Assembly: GCA_031082225.1 (NCBI GenBank)
Contig: JAVHLG010000028.1
Span: 1-52,306, forward strand
Source of the DNA: Desulfovibrionaceae bacterium
GTDB taxonomy: Bacteria; Desulfobacterota; Desulfovibrionia; Desulfovibrionales; Desulfovibrionaceae
Direction of reading: 5' to 3'
Length of the DNA stretch: 52,306 nucleotides
Shown here: one piece after another, positions 9,248 through 16,152 of the stretch
Numbering within the stretch: the stretch's first letter is position 1
Layout: every line of letters begins with the position of its first letter
The notes under the pieces: generated by a model
Seen by the model: only the letters and a program-made list of their open reading frames with translations
What the model was told of the DNA's origin: nothing
Database searches by the model: none
Translations under genes and position numbers: made by a program

Positions 9248-10981
9248 TCAACATTTCACCATGAGGGAATTGACCAGTTTGAGCAACAGTTCCGGCTTGT
9301 GGTGCAGGTCGGAATTTTGCAGAAAATTGCGTCGCTGCATGAACCGGTCGCGCACCGTGGCCGCGTAGTCCTCGGGATTATCCACCGTGGCCGGGTCGTA
9401 GCGGTCGCCGTAGCCCGGCAGGATCTTCTCCACGCTTTTTTTGTCCGGGATCTGGGCCCCGGGCAGCACGTCCCAGTCGGTCCAGGTCAGGCGGTCGGTC
9501 AAAAGGGCGGTCTGCAGGGTGAGCGACGTCTGCAGCGGGATCTTGCGCAGATCGCGGTCCGAGGTGCGCCAGAAGCCCACGGAGTTGAAGCAGAATCCCG
9601 TGGCCCCGTTCTCGAAGACCTTGAGAAAGGCCTCCACGTCCTTCCACAGCTCGTACACCCGGAAGGGGTTGGCGAAGGGCTCGAAGACCAGTTTCTTGAG
9701 TTCCTCCTCGGAGACGTTTTCGGCCAGGTTGCGCCGGGTCATGAGCGAGGCCCCCATGGCCACGGCCAGATTGTTGTCGATGAACCGGATCACCGGTGGC
9801 AGGCAGGTATCCTTCATGAGCCAGACCATGACGTCCGGGAAGGCGCAGCGGTTGACGTAGACCCCGAGCAGGTCGCGGTCGATGAGCGCCCGGCCGTTGG
9901 GGTTGCGCACGTCCTGCCCCAGGGGCAGCACCTTGCCGTCCAGGCGGGTCAGGGCCGTGTTTTGCACCGAGATCATGTACCGCCAGTCCGGGTGGTCCAG
10001 GGGCCGGGAGTCGGTCTTGTCAAAAAGCGTGGGTTCCCAGACCCGGCATACCTTCTGGTCGCAGTCGATCTGGAAGGCGTCGTCGTGCAGCACCACCTTG
10101 GTGAAGCCCTCGGGCAGGGTGCCGCCGTTGTCGTGGGAGTTGGTATGGGAGGACTTGCCCGTGCCGGACAGCCCGAAAAAGGCGATGGAACGCTTGCCCA
10201 GCACCCGGAATTTTTTTTCCGCAGCCTTGGAGAAATCGAGCTCCTTGATGCCGCCGTGGCAGGCGGCCATGCCCAGGCGCATGCCCGAGGTCCAGGCCAG
10301 GGTCAGGGTGCCTTTCTTGCGCTCGCCGAAATAGCGCATGCCCAGGTTCACGACCACGTTGGCGTCCTCGTCCACCAGGGCCAGTTGGGCGCCGCCTTCG
10401 TTGTGATAATAGGGGTCCGTGGTGCGCCAGTGGTTAAATCCCACGATGAGGATGTCCTGGATGGGCAGGACCGGGCTTTTGGCGTACTGCCCGGCCAGTT
10501 CCTCGAAGGGCGTGAAGTTGGCCAGCCAGTTGAAGACGTTGACGGCGTCGTCCTCGGTGGTCACCATGGTGGCCTTGATCATGAGGTCCGCATCCAGGCC
10601 CAGGATGGCGTTGGCCTTGATGAGGGGATGTTTTTGCATCTCGTAGACGGCCTCGCGCAGGTCGGCCTCCACCTTGCGCCGTTCCGAGGCGGGCATGCGG
10701 GTGTAGAATCGTCTGGCCTTGGCCGTGCGGCCCACGATCCGGCCGTGGCAGTGGTTTAAGACCGTGGCCCCCTCGGGCAGCCCCAGGCGTCTGGCCGCCG
10801 GGGGATAGATGGGCAGGTCCGTGTCCATGACGTCGTGCTGGGCCTTGGCCAGTTCATACGCCTCGGCCGCCGTGACCCGGCGCACCCGCTTGTCCAGAAG
10901 CAGGGTCTGGGCGATGGACCGGGGGGCGGGTATGCGGGTGAAGTCGCTGTGGTAATATTGGTAGCTGGACTGGCTGGCCAT
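9248..10981 (-). CDS. pckA: Phosphoenolpyruvate carboxykinase (ATP-type family), divergent
   Basis: The 577-residue protein belongs to the ATP-dependent PEP carboxykinase family, which interconverts oxaloacetate and PEP in gluconeogenesis. The P-loop FFGLSGTGKSS (around 268-278) is the family's kinase-1a signature. YFGERKKG keeps the substrate and metal-binding lysine region, ACHGG keeps the metal-site His, and LHDDAFQ provides the paired aspartates of kinase-2. Several motifs differ from the classical enzyme (GRTAKARRF for GRSPKDK, LHDDAF for GDDEHGW), so this is a divergent branch and the catalytic call is not fully secure. AAGGAG lies 8 nt before the ATG. It stands alone between two hairpins, with the channel gene downstream. 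Confidence 0.82.
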   Translation of the reverse strand: MASQSSYQYYHSDFTRIPAPRSIAQTLLLDKRVRRVTAAEAYELAKAQHDVMDTDLPIYPPAARRLGLPEGATVLNHCHGRIVGRTAKARRFYTRMPASERRKVEADLREAVYEMQKHPLIKANAILGLDADLMIKATMVTTEDDAVNVFNWLANFTPFEELAGQYAKSPVLPIQDILIVGFNHWRTTDPYYHNEGGAQLALVDEDANVVVNLGMRYFGERKKGTLTLAWTSGMRLGMAACHGGIKELDFSKAAEKKFRVLGKRSIAFFGLSGTGKSSHTNSHDNGGTLPEGFTKVVLHDDAFQIDCDQKVCRVWEPTLFDKTDSRPLDHPDWRYMISVQNTALTRLDGKVLPLGQDVRNPNGRALIDRDLLGVYVNRCAFPDVMVWLMKDTCLPPVIRFIDNNLAVAMGASLMTRRNLAENVSEEELKKLVFEPFANPFRVYELWKDVEAFLKVFENGATGFCFNSVGFWRTSDRDLRKIPLQTSLTLQTALLTDRLTWTDWDVLPGAQIPDKKSVEKILPGYGDRYDPATVDNPEDYAATVRDRFMQRRNFLQNSDLHHKPELLLKLVNSLMVKC

Positions 10982-11073: not shown

Positions 11074-11109
11074 CGAAAAAGGCCCCGGGAGATTGGTTCT
11101 CCCGGGGCC
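11074..11109 (-). terminator. Intrinsic terminator of the iorAB-regulator operon
   Basis: A perfect 12-bp stem (GGCCCCGGGAGA at 11081-11092 with TCTCCCGGGGCC at 11098-11109) has a 5-nt loop. Read on the minus strand it is followed by TTTTTCGTTT. It begins 9 nt after the stop codon of the regulator gene. Confidence 0.9.
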
Positions 11110-11117
11110 GCGCGGCG

Positions 11118-12788
11118 CTATCCCCGGCGTCCCATGGTGAAGCGTTTGGGGTCGATGCCGTATTTTTTGACCTTGTAGTTGACCACCCGGTAGCTTTCGC
11201 GCAGGTCGCGGGCGGCCTGGAACATGTTGCCCCGGGCCTTTTTCAGGGCCTCGATCAAGAGTTCCTGCTCGAACTTGGCCACGGCCTCGCCGAACGACAG
11301 GCTGGGGCCGGTATTGGAACTCTCGGCGGTCTGCAGGGTGGGCGGCAGATGGTAGGTGCGCACCACGCCCTCGTCGCACAGCATGGCGGCGCGCTCCATG
11401 CAACTGGCCAGTTCCCGGGCGTTTCCCGGCCAGTGGTACTGGTTCAACAGATCGATGGCCGGGGTGGAGATGCGGCGCAGGGCCTTGCCGAGTTTTTTGG
11501 AATACTGGTCCAGGAAATGCTCGGCCAGGGGCAGGATGTCCCCGGCCCGGTCGCGCAGGGCCGGAACGTAGATGGGCAGGACGCTTAGGCCGTAATACAG
11601 GTCTTCCAGAAACTCGCCCTTGGCCATGCGCTCGCCCAGGGAGGCGCTGGTGGCGGCCACGATGCGCGCGTCCACATGCACCGGGGCGATGCCGCCCTTG
11701 CGCAGCACCGTGCCTTCGTGGATGACCCGGAGCACCGCCTTCTGGGATGCGGGGGACAACTCCTCGATGTCGTCCAGGAACACGCCGCCGCCCTGGGCCA
11801 GTTCGAAGACGCCGCGCCTGGAGCGGGTGGACTCGGAGGCCTCGCCCTTTTGCACCCCGAAAAGGGCCTCCTCCACCACCTCCTGCGGGTCCGTGCCGCA
11901 GGACAGACGCAGAAACGGCCGGGCGCGGCGGGGACTCTGGGCATGCAGCAGTTCCGCCAGAAATTCCTTGCCCGTGCCTTCCTCGCCCCGGAACAGGACC
12001 GGCGTGTTCGACGCGGCGGCCTGGGCCACCTGCCGCAGCACCAGGCGCATGCTTTTGGAGACGGCCACCGGGGCCTGGCCGCCAAGGGGCGGCTCGGGGA
12101 GGGGGTCGGTCTGGGTCTGGATCAGACGGCGGCGGGGCCGGGTGAGTTCGTCGCGCAGCCGCATGGACAGGCTGCCCACCAGGGTGGCCACCACGCTCAA
12201 AAAATCGCAGTGGGCCTCCAAAAAGACGGGCGGGGCCTTGGGAATGTCCACGCTCAAGGTGCCGAGCACCCCGTGCGGCTCCTTTGCGGCGGGTTCATCC
12301 GCCACGGCCGCGTCGGCCGCGCCCGGCTGCCCGGCCGGGGCCTCGGGCGCTTGGGCCGCATCGGCGGCTGCTGCGGCGGCCACCTGCCCGGCCGGGGCCG
12401 GTTTGGGGGCGTTGATGGGCACGCACAGAAAAGACAGGGTCTCCAGTTCCTCGGGGGGGCGGCCGATGAAGTCCGGGTGGTCCCCCACGTCCTCGATGAC
12501 CAGGGTGCGCCGGGTGGCCATGACCTGGCTGGTGGCCAGGGGCCCCGGGCCGAAGAGGTGGGAGATGGCCGCCTCGCGGCCGCGGTCCAGGCTGATTTTG
12601 GTGTTTTTTCGGGGCAGGTCGAACAGTTCGATGTGGACGCGGCGGTATCCCAGGCTGCCCACCAGGATGTCCAGGGTCTTTTCCAGGCCCTGGCGCACGG
12701 GGATGTTGGGGCCGGTTTCCTGAATGATGCGTGTGAGCGTGGTCAGGAAGATGGGCCAGCCGCTATCGAAGGAGGAGAGTCCGTTCAT
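11118..12788 (-). CDS. Sigma-54 activator-like protein (GAF-AAA+-Fis HTH) with degenerate AAA+ motifs
   Basis: The 556-residue product has the NifA-like order: a GAF domain (about 15-210, interrupted by an Ala/Pro-rich insert at 127-170), an AAA+ domain and a Fis-type helix-turn-helix at the C-terminus. Walker A (GEEGTGKE, 268-275), Walker B (GVFLDDIEE, 335-343) and WPGNAREL are present. The GAFTGA loop that contacts sigma-54 is replaced by GEASES (315-320). Both arginines of the usual FREDLYYRL segment are gone (FLEDLYYGL, Leu394 and Gly400). The protein therefore probably binds DNA but cannot act as a normal sigma-54 activator. It is the last gene of the ior operon, 18 nt after iorB, and may sense 2-oxo acids; that role is inferred. 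Confidence 0.88.
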   Translation of the reverse strand: MNGLSSFDSGWPIFLTTLTRIIQETGPNIPVRQGLEKTLDILVGSLGYRRVHIELFDLPRKNTKISLDRGREAAISHLFGPGPLATSQVMATRRTLVIEDVGDHPDFIGRPPEELETLSFLCVPINAPKPAPAGQVAAAAAADAAQAPEAPAGQPGAADAAVADEPAAKEPHGVLGTLSVDIPKAPPVFLEAHCDFLSVVATLVGSLSMRLRDELTRPRRRLIQTQTDPLPEPPLGGQAPVAVSKSMRLVLRQVAQAAASNTPVLFRGEEGTGKEFLAELLHAQSPRRARPFLRLSCGTDPQEVVEEALFGVQKGEASESTRSRRGVFELAQGGGVFLDDIEELSPASQKAVLRVIHEGTVLRKGGIAPVHVDARIVAATSASLGERMAKGEFLEDLYYGLSVLPIYVPALRDRAGDILPLAEHFLDQYSKKLGKALRRISTPAIDLLNQYHWPGNARELASCMERAAMLCDEGVVRTYHLPPTLQTAESSNTGPSLSFGEAVAKFEQELLIEALKKARGNMFQAARDLRESYRVVNYKVKKYGIDPKRFTMGRRG

Positions 12789-12806: not shown

Positions 12807-13397
12807 TTAGCCGCAAAGGGCGTCGGCTCCCAGCCGCAGGGCCGCGAGATTGACGTCCACGATCTTGGGCGGCAGATGTTTTGTGATGGCCGCTTCCATG
12901 GCCGCCATGTCGAAGGGGAAGGCCCCGGCGGCGCAGGCCGCGCCCAAAAGCACGGTGTTGGCGCTTTGCGGGTTGCCCGCCGCAACCCCGAGGGCGTGGC
13001 AGGGGATAAATACCGCCTTCCCGGCCCATTCCCGGATGGGGGCGCAAAGGGTCTCCAGGGGGGGATAGGGTTCGCGCTCCAGGGCCGAACTCAAGGGCGG
13101 GATGGGGTCGGTGCTCACGGCCGCAAACCCTCCCTGCATCAGCATGGGCAGGGCCCGCAGGGCCTCCAGGGGCTCGAAGCCGAGCAGGATGTCGGCCTCC
13201 CCCGGGCTGATCTTGGGGCTTGTGAAGCCGCCCAGGAGCACCGTGGACTCCACCACGCCGCCGCGCTGGGCCATGCCGTGGATCTCCCCCGAGACCACGT
13301 CAAGGCCCGCATCCATGGCCGCCAGGGCCAGAAGGCGCGTGGAGGTGAGGGTTCCCTGGCCGCCGACGCCGGTGAGAAAAATGCGATGGCGCTGCAT
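12807..13397 (-). CDS. iorB: Indolepyruvate:ferredoxin oxidoreductase, beta subunit
   Basis: IorB is the gamma-domain subunit of the oxidoreductase that converts aryl 2-oxo acids from aromatic amino acids to aryl-acetyl-CoA with reduction of ferredoxin. The 196-residue protein shows FLTGVGGQGTLTSTRLL at the N-terminus, typical of the 2-oxoacid oxidoreductase gamma fold, then SGEIHGMAQRGG and ADILLGFEPLEA. The ATG follows the iorA stop codon with no gap (TAA then ATG), so translation is coupled. Length is normal for the family. Confidence 0.93.
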   Translation of the reverse strand: MQRHRIFLTGVGGQGTLTSTRLLALAAMDAGLDVVSGEIHGMAQRGGVVESTVLLGGFTSPKISPGEADILLGFEPLEALRALPMLMQGGFAAVSTDPIPPLSSALEREPYPPLETLCAPIREWAGKAVFIPCHALGVAAGNPQSANTVLLGAACAAGAFPFDMAAMEAAITKHLPPKIVDVNLAALRLGADALCG

Positions 13398-15236
13398 TTA
13401 TCCATCCTTCTTGCGGGCTTTGATTTCCGGGGAGAGCTGCACGCAGTACATGCAGCCCGAACAGGACTCGGCGTTGATGGTAAAGACCCCCTCCACCATG
13501 GTGAAGGCCGGACAGGCCAGTGCGTCGCGACAGGCCAGACACTTGGCGGGGTCGCCGGCCACCTGGGCGGGCGGCGTCTTGCGCGCGATCTTGACCTTGC
13601 GGGCGTGGATGGGGCAGGGGGCCTCGGCGATGAGCACCCGGACCCCGGACTGTTCCTTGAGATCCGTCAGGGCCGCCACCGTGGCCTTGTGGTTGAAGGG
13701 ATTGACCCGCACGGGCGTCACGCCGCAGGCCGCCACCAGTCCGGCCAGGTCCACCTTGGAGGAGAACTCCCCGAAGATGGTGTGGTCCACGCCCGGGTGG
13801 GGCTGGTGTCCGGTCATGCCCGTGGTGCGGTTGTCCAGGATCACCAGGAGCAGTTCGTGGCCGCCCGCCACGGCGTTGATGAGCCCGGTGATGCCGGAAT
13901 GGAAGAAGGTGGAGTCGCCGATAAAGGCCACCACCGGGCGTCCCGAGACGGCGGCGAAACCGCTTCCGGCGCTGACCGAGGAGCCCATGCAGAAAAGGAA
14001 GTCGGCGCAGGACAGGGGCGGCTGGATGCCGAGGGTATAGCAGCCGATGTCCGAGGAATAGACCGGTTCGTCCCCGAAGACCTGGCGCACGGCGTGGTAG
14101 GAGGCCCGGTGCGGGCACCCGGCGCACATGTTGGGCGGACGCCTGGGCAGGTCGGCGGGTACGGCGTACAGGGTCTTTTCCCGCGCGGGCAGGCCGCATG
14201 CGGCGCGCACCGCCCCCTCCACGATCTCCGGGGAATATTCGCCGAAGCGCGGAAGGATCTCCCCCTTGCCCACCACCGCCGTGGAGATACCCCGGCGCTG
14301 GAAAAGCGCCCGGATCTCCTCCTCCACAATGGGATCCACCTCTTCCAGGACCACCAGGGCGTCCAGGCCCTCGGCGAAGTCGGCGATGAGGTTTTTGGGC
14401 AGGGGATGGGAAAATCCCAGGTCCAAAACCTTGACCGTGCCGGCAAGCCCGGTCTCGAACAGGGCGTCGTGCAGGTAGGCCCGGCAGATGCCCGAGGCCA
14501 CGAACCCGATGGTCCCCTGGCCGGAGACGACGTTTAGGGGCGAGATGTCGGCGGCGGCGGACAGGGCGTCGAGCTTGTCCAGAAGCGCCAGGCGCATGGC
14601 CCGGGCCGAGGCCGGCAGCGGCACGTAGCGAAAGGGGTTTTTCACGAAGGGCGCGGGCGGGGTCTTTTCGGGCAGGGCCGCAAAGGTCACGGGGCCGCGC
14701 ACGTGGTTGACCCGGGTGGTGGTGCGCAAAAGGACCGGCTGGCCGAAGGTCAGCGACAGCTCCATGGCCGCCCGGGTGAAATCCTTGCATTCCTGGGCCG
14801 TACCCGGCTCGATGCAGGGCAGTCCGGCCAGCCGGGCATACCAGCGGTTGTCCTGCTCGTTTTGCGAGGAATGGCTGCCCGGGTCGTCGGCCGAGAGCAG
14901 CACGAACCCCCCGGGCGAGCCCACGTAGGCCAGGGTCAAAAGGGGATCGGCGGCCACGTTGACGCCCACGTGCTTCATGGTCACAAACGTCCTGGCCCCG
15001 GCCAGGCTGGCCCCGGCCCCGACCTCCAGGGCCACCTTCTCGTTGACGGAATATTCGAAACGGTAGGGGCCCTGCGGCGACAGCCGGAAAAAGGTGTCCG
15101 GCACCTCCGAGGACGGCGTCCCCGGATAACAGGTCACCATGTCCACCCCGGCCTCAAGCGCGCCCCGGACGATGGCCTCGTTGCCGAGCAGAAAATGTCT
15201 CGCCCCGCCTTCTTTGTCCAAAAGCTCCTTGCCCAT
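13398..15236 (-). CDS. iorA: Indolepyruvate:ferredoxin oxidoreductase, alpha subunit
   Basis: IorA holds the TPP-dependent 2-oxoacid decarboxylating site and a C-terminal ferredoxin domain. In the 612-residue protein the N-terminal pyrimidine-binding part includes GVDMVTCYPGTPSSEVPDTF. The TPP/Mg region has IGDSTFFHSGITGL and LDNRTTGMTGHQ. The ferredoxin part has CLACRDALACP (Cys566, 569, 575) and CSGCMYCVQLSP (Cys592, 595, 598). Compared with a two-cluster ferredoxin, the third Cys of motif 1 (Ala572) and the fourth Cys of motif 2 (Ser602) are missing. Those two positions serve the same cluster, so probably only one [4Fe-4S] cluster remains. It is 39 nt downstream of the TPR gene and is coupled to iorB. 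Confidence 0.94.
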   Translation of the reverse strand: MGKELLDKEGGARHFLLGNEAIVRGALEAGVDMVTCYPGTPSSEVPDTFFRLSPQGPYRFEYSVNEKVALEVGAGASLAGARTFVTMKHVGVNVAADPLLTLAYVGSPGGFVLLSADDPGSHSSQNEQDNRWYARLAGLPCIEPGTAQECKDFTRAAMELSLTFGQPVLLRTTTRVNHVRGPVTFAALPEKTPPAPFVKNPFRYVPLPASARAMRLALLDKLDALSAAADISPLNVVSGQGTIGFVASGICRAYLHDALFETGLAGTVKVLDLGFSHPLPKNLIADFAEGLDALVVLEEVDPIVEEEIRALFQRRGISTAVVGKGEILPRFGEYSPEIVEGAVRAACGLPAREKTLYAVPADLPRRPPNMCAGCPHRASYHAVRQVFGDEPVYSSDIGCYTLGIQPPLSCADFLFCMGSSVSAGSGFAAVSGRPVVAFIGDSTFFHSGITGLINAVAGGHELLLVILDNRTTGMTGHQPHPGVDHTIFGEFSSKVDLAGLVAACGVTPVRVNPFNHKATVAALTDLKEQSGVRVLIAEAPCPIHARKVKIARKTPPAQVAGDPAKCLACRDALACPAFTMVEGVFTINAESCSGCMYCVQLSPEIKARKKDG

Positions 15237-15275: not shown

Positions 15276-15962
15276 CTATCCGTTGCTTTTCTGTTCGCCC
15301 GCCTCGATTTTGGCCCGTAGGGCCTCGATCTTGGAATCGATGTACGACATGTTTTGCATGGAGCTTTCCGCCTTCATGCGCTCATATCCCGAAAGCGCCG
15401 CCTTGAGGTCGCCTGCGGCCTCGGCGGTCACGGCCATCTGGCGGTCGATGGCCAGAAGAAACGGCTTGGACGCCGTGCCCCGGGCCTTCTCCAGGATCTG
15501 CAGGGCCTTGGCCGTGTCCCCGGTCTTGGTCAGGATGGCCGCCTGTCCCAGTTCCGCCAGGGAGCGCACCGCGCCGTCGGCGGATGCGGACAGATCCTGC
15601 CAGGCCAGGGCGGCGGCGGGCAGGTCGCCCGCGTCCTGGGCGGCCTTGGCCATATCCAGGAGCACGCCGTCGCGCGCCCCCGAGGGGGCCTCGGACAAAA
15701 GGGCCTTGAGCGCCGCCAGCCGGTCCGCGCCGGATTTTTCGGCCGCGATGCGTCCGATCTTCTCCGTGACCTCGGCGATGCGCGAGGCCTGGTATTTCTG
15801 GTAGGCCGCCACGCCCCCGGAGGCTACCAGGGCCACCGCAGCGGCGATGGCGGCGGGTTTCCAGTAGTCGCGGACAAGGCGGGCCAGGAGGTTGAGGTCT
15901 TCGGCCGCCTGGGCGGCATGGGCCGCCTGGGGGGGGGCGGTTTTCTTCGTCGGATCGGCCAT
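15276..15962 (-). CDS. Membrane-anchored TPR-type protein (YfgM-like)
   Basis: The 228-residue protein has a cytoplasmic N-terminal stretch, one membrane helix (about 35-54, PAAIAAAVALVASGGVAAY) and a long alanine-rich helical region of TPR-like repeats reaching the C-terminus. This is the layout of YfgM/TPR_21 proteins, which sit in the inner membrane and help secreted proteins at the Sec translocon. GGAGG lies 10 nt before the ATG. It is the first gene of the operon with iorA and iorB; the link to 2-oxoacid oxidation may be accidental. It is divergent from proA, with about 190 bp of promoter DNA between them. Confidence 0.7.
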   Translation of the reverse strand: MADPTKKTAPPQAAHAAQAAEDLNLLARLVRDYWKPAAIAAAVALVASGGVAAYQKYQASRIAEVTEKIGRIAAEKSGADRLAALKALLSEAPSGARDGVLLDMAKAAQDAGDLPAAALAWQDLSASADGAVRSLAELGQAAILTKTGDTAKALQILEKARGTASKPFLLAIDRQMAVTAEAAGDLKAALSGYERMKAESSMQNMSYIDSKIEALRAKIEAGEQKSNG

Positions 15963-16152
15963 GGGATGATTCCTCCAGGATGGGGATGATGTGCGAATCG
16001 CAAAAGAACAAGACCTTTAAGCAGAAACCGGACGGCCTGTCAAAAGCCCGGGCCCGCATGGGGGCGGACTGACGGCCTCCCCGTTGACTTTTCCTGCGGT
16101 TGTTGCCAAGCCTCGCCAAGCCATCGACACCGAAAAAACAGGGATACGCCAT

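Follow-up and report, generated by a model that had tools for sequence, protein, structure and literature searches.

The closest described counterpart of the protein considered here is DVU1949 of Desulfovibrio vulgaris Hildenborough, a GAFTGA-bearing one-component regulator of the sigma-54 type that lies at the end of the operon DVU1952-iorA-iorB-DVU1949 and has a predicted nine-operon nitrogen regulon (PMC4641369). The ior genes enter that predicted regulon only as part of DVU1949's own operon; the study found no conserved sigma-54 promoter near DVU1949 and, as far as its text shows, checked GAFTGA in D. vulgaris only (PMC4641369). Homologues without GAFTGA that act with sigma-70 are already known (PMC3162934, PMC10274813); what is newly seen here is a putative convergent route. 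NtrC of Rhodobacter capsulatus and of Caulobacter are bEBP-family nitrogen regulators of this kind, reported or inferred to act at sigma-70 promoters; R. capsulatus NtrC, which uses sigma-70, needs ATP binding and not hydrolysis, and Caulobacter NtrC has been argued to need hydrolysis (PMC10274813). TyrR, DhaR and HupR are sigma-70-dependent bEBP homologues with a defective GAFTGA (PMC3162934). VpsR of Vibrio cholerae (7v2b; spelt VspR in PMC10274813) has the AAA+ bEBP fold without GAFTGA, regulates sigma-70 promoters and is said to need no ATP (PMC10274813), its ligand being c-di-GMP according to the title of 7v2b.

The protein described here is encoded at 11118..12788 (-) of a 52,306-nucleotide stretch of DNA from a Desulfovibrionaceae bacterium (contig JAVHLG010000028.1, assembly GCA_031082225.1), the whole of which is referred to as the window. 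The open reading frame list, Pfam, a motif alignment and a tree describe a DVU1949-type regulator of 556 aa with the architecture GAF-AAA+-lid-Fis HTH; by operon order and family it appears to correspond to DVU1949, whose own sequence lies outside the loci compared. Unlike DVU1949, the window protein lacks GAFTGA and the hydrolysis residues, and its clade lacks a GAF loop and a half-site at the ior promoter. Unlike the two NtrC proteins, which are two-component response regulators with the L1 loop deleted, it has an L1 loop of full length with substituted residues, and where VpsR has its c-di-GMP ligand the window protein has a GAF domain. The likeness to TyrR, DhaR and HupR is drawn apart from the hydrolysis residues, and the sensor domains, targets and lineages of those three differ from those of the window protein. 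NifA, which activates nif genes with sigma-54 and is catalytically intact, is the best PDB sequence match (9qq6) and a GAF fold match (8jrc), yet GAFTGA and FREDLYYRL are present in the aligned NifA and both are missing from the window protein.

Pfam profiles match the window protein with Sigma54_activat (PF00158, 2.8e-46), AAA_lid_14 (9.5e-26) and HTH_8 (5.3e-7), and also with GAF, in agreement with the GAF sensor proposed in an earlier note on this DNA. The GAF region (about residues 14-210; 12159..12749 (-)) resembles the GAF domain of NifA in the predicted model (8jrc; Z 18.9, rmsd 2.7, 157 residues), and one of its loops is shorter by 4 residues than the corresponding loop of the intact orthologues. 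An Ala/Pro-rich insert inside this domain (residues about 127-171; 12276-12410 (-)), with a dN/dS of 0.47-0.55, occurs in the window and, in other letters, in one congener (L032), and is shorter or absent elsewhere.

The catalytic roles of the Walker B Glu, the switch Asn, the arginine fingers and related residues are known from work on PspF and NtrC1. In the motif alignment, Walker A reads GEEGTGKE with K274 kept (residues 268-275; 11964..11987 (-)), and the sensor II Arg is retained as R458. S296 occupies the position of the switch Asn (11901..11903 (-)), which is Asn in 50/50 intact orthologues; GEASES stands at the GAFTGA position in the L1 loop (residues 315-320; 11829..11846 (-)); Walker B, LDEI in activators, is FLDDI, with D340 for the catalytic Glu (residues 337-341; 11766..11780 (-)); and FLEDLYYGL has lost both arginine fingers (residues 393-401; 11586..11612 (-)). 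HMMER alignments to NifA, NtrC1 and ZraR place GEASES opposite GAFTGA, and L394 and G400 opposite both Arg of the FREDLYYRL-type stretch; the earlier note had read both substitutions exactly. It had also listed Walker A, Walker B and the Fis HTH as kept, which holds for the first and the last and not for Walker B, and it overlooked that the loss extends beyond GAFTGA and both arginines to the Walker B Glu and the switch Asn. The Fis-type HTH (residues 497-551; 11136..11300 (-); Pfam and alignment), with the recognition region SYRVVNYKVKKYG, is nearly unchanged across the clades.

Published rules for GAFTGA function accept only Tyr in place of Phe at position 3 and class any other replacement as inactive, and GEASES has Ala there; its Glu at position 2 is in none of the lists, and its Ser, Glu and Ser at positions 4, 5 and 6 would be tolerable (PMC3162934). 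Of the marks of a bEBP, the window protein retains PF00158, the lid, the Fis HTH and Walker A and lacks the Walker B Glu and the arginine fingers (D340, L394, G400); it also shows the combination of absent GAFTGA and retained ATP-binding site that characterizes sigma-70-acting bEBPs of the TyrR or R. capsulatus NtrC type. To judge from these residues, ATP hydrolysis and contact with sigma-54 are hardly to be expected of its motor.

Relatives of the window protein were gathered from whole genomes and named contigs. The Desulfovibrionales relatives form one 85-row branch (SH-aLRT 100) in a quick-search tree that includes the motif columns and is without DVU1949 itself, and the window-genome paralogues L005, L006 and L009 fall outside it. 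Left out before counting were one masked row (L120), duplicates (54 rows to 50, 15 to 14), other activators (L122-L140) and four distant rows, all intact (L105, L109, L116, L117). Outside two clades, all 50 distinct orthologues keep the Walker A Lys, switch Asn, Walker B DE, both arginines and sensor II Arg, with GAFTGA in 49 and GSFTGA in one, a 50/50 that is partly by construction, since the motif table served to define groups A and B in the first place; that A and B are each one branch with no other rows inside is a result of the tree, which includes the motif columns. Close relatives are numerous among the rows, and clustering at 90% identity leaves 32 clusters of intact proteins, 9 of A and 13 of B.

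Clade A contains the window protein and those of Solidesulfovibrio and relatives (14 distinct), and the loss is conserved throughout it: the switch Asn, the Phe and Thr of GAFTGA, the Walker B Glu and both arginines are replaced in 14/14, the Thr by Ser in 10, while the Walker A Lys is kept in 13/14 and the sensor II Arg in 12/14. Deep members drift further at catalytic positions (GGPSQH, GKAPGA; Arg for the Walker A Lys in one; two without the sensor II Arg). Clade B, a gut lineage of Mailhella, Bilophila and relatives (L099-L118 in part, L121), has replaced the GAFTGA Thr, Walker B Glu, Asn, first Arg and sensor II Arg in 17/17, mostly giving GAFLGA and mostly Ala for the Walker B Glu, and keeps the GAFTGA Phe in 17/17, the second Arg in 16/17 and the Walker A Lys in 16/17. 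In 13/13 clade A rows the GAF loop DHPxFLNxAFGR is shortened by 4 residues; it is of full length in 50/50 intact and 17/17 clade B rows. Clade A proteins share 48% identity with the intact orthologues in the AAA+ core (82% among intact) and 77.5% in the HTH (84.6% among intact). The earlier note took homologues with an intact GAFTGA to count against its reading; such homologues are the rule outside the two clades (50/50), and because they are, the loss is derived rather than refuted. Two orthologues (G072:C3:690557-691702 and G064:C128:1592-2731) are interrupted, within the match or frame, by a single TGA codon in frame, which may reflect recoding, an error or a broken gene.

The full tree (quick search) places A and B on separate branches. 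In a regulator tree built without the AAA+ core each is one branch (100/100) and a joint A+B clade is unrejected (p-AU 0.138). In an RpoN tree of 36 genomes (7 A, 10 B, 14 intact, 5 outgroup; G089 was dropped, its RpoN being unrecovered), B joins an intact genome (99/93) and a single A+B clade is rejected (p-AU 2.14e-05). These trees suggest that the motor losses of the two clades, which differ in pattern, arose separately by a convergent route, with horizontal transfer of the regulator gene a possibility. RpoN (PF04552) is present in 22/22 and 15/15 genomes looked at, and the motor loss is therefore no by-product of losing sigma-54 from the genome. Misassembly or frameshift was likewise rejected, with similar losses in congeners and in named Solidesulfovibrio contigs.

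The regulator gene is the last of a presumed operon that begins with a TPR-like protein, the positional counterpart of DVU1952 (15276..15962 (-); Pfam, gene order and PMC4641369), and continues with iorA and iorB, the alpha and beta subunits of indolepyruvate ferredoxin oxidoreductase (13398..15236 (-) and 12807..13397 (-); profile matches). Directly 3' of its stop codon, a hairpin scan identifies a terminator-like hairpin of intrinsic type, with 12 pairs and a TTTTT tail (11081..11109 (-)). Locus comparison finds the order TPR-iorA-iorB-regulator in the window, L061-L066 and L071, and the regulator is commonly last in it, in intact and clade A members alike; the intact L049, L074 and L076 have no iorAB beside the regulator, and in clade B, where some loci are short, iorAB adjoins it in 2/17 (L114, L121). 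The tie to ior drawn in the earlier note stands as a linkage common in the family, but "ior regulator" is too narrow, because DVU1949, with its identical operon order, has a published regulon prediction that centres on nitrogen metabolism. At 9248-10981 (-) lies the gene of a PEPCK-like protein whose family scores are unusually low (PF01293 slightly under its cut-off); relatives 79-93% identical are neighbours of the regulator in some of the clade A loci (L032-L034, L061-L067) and in none of the other loci searched, many of them short.

A sigma-70-like promoter of the operon can be read at 16015..16043 (-) as TTGACA-17 nt-TTAAAG, with a perfect -35 and a weak -10; the promoter scan left it unscored, and it stays uncertain because of the weak -10. 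The ior promoters of the window and 33 other loci were compared, omitting loci cut by contig ends, loci without iorA and short loci, with start codons picked by ribosome-site score, some of which may be wrong (that of L061 is). The scan found no -24/-12 element in any of the 34 places, 260 bases each. In the intact set, 22 of 24 loci carry a half-site (GTMA, GTAC or TACA) 6 nt past a TTGAC or TTGAT box, which puts it between the -35 and -10 positions; the pattern was written after the promoters had been inspected. The half-site is absent from the window's promoter, from 8/8 clade A places in all, and from 2/2 clade B places; in clade B, L114 is within one base of it (TTGAC-N6-GTCG) and L121 is without the TTGAC box. 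Several intact loci are GC-rich to the same degree as those of clade A. The position of the half-site suggests autorepression of the ior operon in intact lineages, seemingly given up in clade A, where autoregulation is unsupported because the site is absent.

Upstream regions of glnA and amt (46 regions from 16 chosen genomes, leaving out L157 and seven listed amt copies) contain ACA-N4-TGT 16 times in 26 intact regions vs 1.7 expected and 15 times in 20 clade A regions vs 1.1 expected, with at most 4 for any other spacing in either set. The opposite order is also enriched (TGT-N1-ACA, 8 vs 1.0 in clade A; TGT-N2-ACA, 6 vs 1.5 in intact). Genome-wide, the stricter TTACA-N(0-12)-TGTMA has no excess over its backward control (3+5 vs 13+15 matches in the window's genome, G000; 8+9 vs 19+19 in G002; 13+19 vs 21+21 in G027; 9+9 vs 9+7 in G040); the looser KRCAWWWWTGTM, chosen after that result, gives 14+13 vs 5+4 in G000, 17+17 vs 10+8 in G002 and 5+6 vs 4+2 in G040. 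Same-family genomes without a clear orthologue have 0 sites in 4 promoters against 0.3 expected, a tiny sample. Among 14 genomes chosen for having no clear orthologue, five (G013, G019, G021, G036, G037) have no amt match (PF00909) and no strong glutamine synthetase match (PF00120, E<=1e-60).

Family f3, whose related activator has a different HTH, has 10 ACA-N4-TGT in 14 promoters (0.7 expected) and 0 of the longer [GT][AG]CA-N4-TGT[AC]. The repeat also occurs in the window's genome before genes that we take to be nifH and a nifE-like gene, and before chemotaxis-type genes. Upstream of nifH, the sigma-54-like TGGCACGCCTCTTGCC accompanies the repeat, which occurs twice, 22-23 bp apart, with a -24/-12-like element (L324, G000:C150); before the nifE-like gene, ACA- and ACG-N4-TGT are likewise 22-23 bp apart, with TGGCACGAGCCTTGTA (L326, G000:C44). 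Because the repeat precedes such genes too, several activators may read it. ACA-N4-TGT is kept at glnA and amt, with the window protein as a candidate reader, which is unproven because of the f3 enrichment under a different HTH and the repeats before nif and chemotaxis-type genes. A sigma-54-like amt promoter (scan score 17 or more) is kept in 5/7 clade A genomes, not every amt copy being included, and another protein must therefore supply its sigma-54 control; at most 1/17 glnA regions reach 17.

We consider it fairly probable that the window protein is a DVU1949-type regulator that is ATPase-dead, binds DNA and acts by occupancy without sigma-54. The AAA+ part of this one-component nitrogen regulator would have been uncoupled from sigma-54 and would have lost ATP hydrolysis; the protein would still fold and would probably keep nucleotide binding through Walker A. 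Through its almost unchanged Fis HTH it would still bind its operators, at presumptive target genes, and the GAF signal, perhaps together with nucleotide binding, would set its oligomeric state. Once on DNA it would block or adjust transcription, the sign being conjectural, of nitrogen-assimilation genes (glnA, amt) from their promoters; it would do so at sigma-70 promoters or else through competition for upstream sites that it shares with intact activators. The bolder proposal of a double conversion in one order, from a former nitrogen activator to an ATPase-dead brake on the same upstream sites (amt, perhaps nif) with its own ior operon released, we regard as rather unlikely. The earlier note had listed a repressor, an adaptor and a sigma-70 regulator; a joint loss that is fixed in the clade and under purifying selection fits that list, with nothing that supports the adaptor in its own right.

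Occupancy is the simplest account, and its main rival is an activator of sigma-70 promoters resembling R. capsulatus NtrC or VpsR, for which ligand- or nucleotide-driven assembly upstream of a housekeeping promoter would lead to direct contact with RNA polymerase. R. capsulatus NtrC provides the precedent, with GAFTGA lost and Walker A kept in the same pattern, the VpsR structure is among the model matches (7v2b; AAA+ part, Z 27.6, rmsd 2.1, 240 residues), and the missing -24/-12 elements at ior and the glnA scan agree with it. No conserved activator-to-promoter spacing was noticed, however, in an unsystematic look, and the ior half-site of intact lineages is in the position of a repressor, not of an activator; sigma-70 activation therefore seems to us unlikely.

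Two further rivals are improbable. The first is a non-catalytic adaptor that tunes an intact activator from within mixed rings. The AAA+ fold appears to be retained in an AlphaFold2 model (mean pLDDT 79.8, pTM 0.48), its AAA+ part superposing on NtrC1 (1ny6) with Z 31.6 and rmsd 1.6 over 247 residues, the lid is retained as well, and the genome offers potential partners: 31 AAA+ matches are listed, and 26 paralogous domains, without the window protein and four weak matches, were aligned. The second Arg and the Walker B Glu are present in all 26; the first Arg is present in 24, with His in one domain and Lys in another, and 24 have a GAFTGA-type hexamer (the others GVATGV and EGGEAV); loss of the catalytic motifs is not the norm in this genome. 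The best-scoring paralogue is only 37% identical, however, which also led us to reject an intact co-orthologue in the same genome, and subunits lacking the Walker B Glu and both arginine fingers would be expected to have a poisoning effect on mixed rings. The EGGEAV domain (L027, G000:C60:7947-8432) has an abnormal L1 with a 4-residue gap, SEL for DEI and both arginines, and lies about 2.4 kb from an intact-looking paralogue, L019.

The second, as improbable as the adaptor, is a relic that is being lost and persists only through its position in the ior operon. Catalytic drift in deep clade A would fit, and constraint is weaker than in intact orthologues because the dN/dS of the window protein against two congeners, 0.22 for the whole, exceeds that of three intact pairs (0.02-0.10); two clade A pairs give 0.11 and a clade B pair 0.10, and against another genus (G027) the values are 0.43 (whole), 0.37 (AAA+) and 0.11 (HTH). 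Yet no stops occur inside clade A genome-search matches, and against the congeners the AAA+ part (0.14-0.15) and HTH (0-0.04) are at or below IorB (0.15-0.29), with the GAF at 0.17-0.25. A pseudogene was rejected on the low AAA+ and HTH values. Constraint is relaxed but far from neutral, and the DNA-reading end is the most constrained part of the protein. It is highly improbable that sigma-54 activation persists through an unconventional loop, as inferred for D. vulgaris DVUA0100 with GVATGV (PMC4641369), since the window protein has lost its ATPase residues too, whereas its GVATGV paralogue L018 keeps the Walker B Glu and both arginines.

The motor loss in this family, its double origin and its coupling to the missing half-site were not found in the literature on DVU1949, Desulfovibrio GAFTGA or Solidesulfovibrio nitrogen regulation, and clade A proteins may be among the defective-GAFTGA entries in the supplement of PMC3162934. 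Within one family and one order, dozens of intact members stand beside two clades without the Walker B Glu, switch Asn, GAFTGA Thr and first arginine finger, while rpoN and the HTH stay. This amounts to a natural experiment on how an enhancer-binding protein behaves after losing its motor. It is also a warning for annotation that PF00158 matches in Solidesulfovibrio-like and Mailhella genomes are not all sigma-54 activators. If the double conversion were true, unlikely as we rate it, a former activator would have turned into a brake on the regulon once driven by the same protein.
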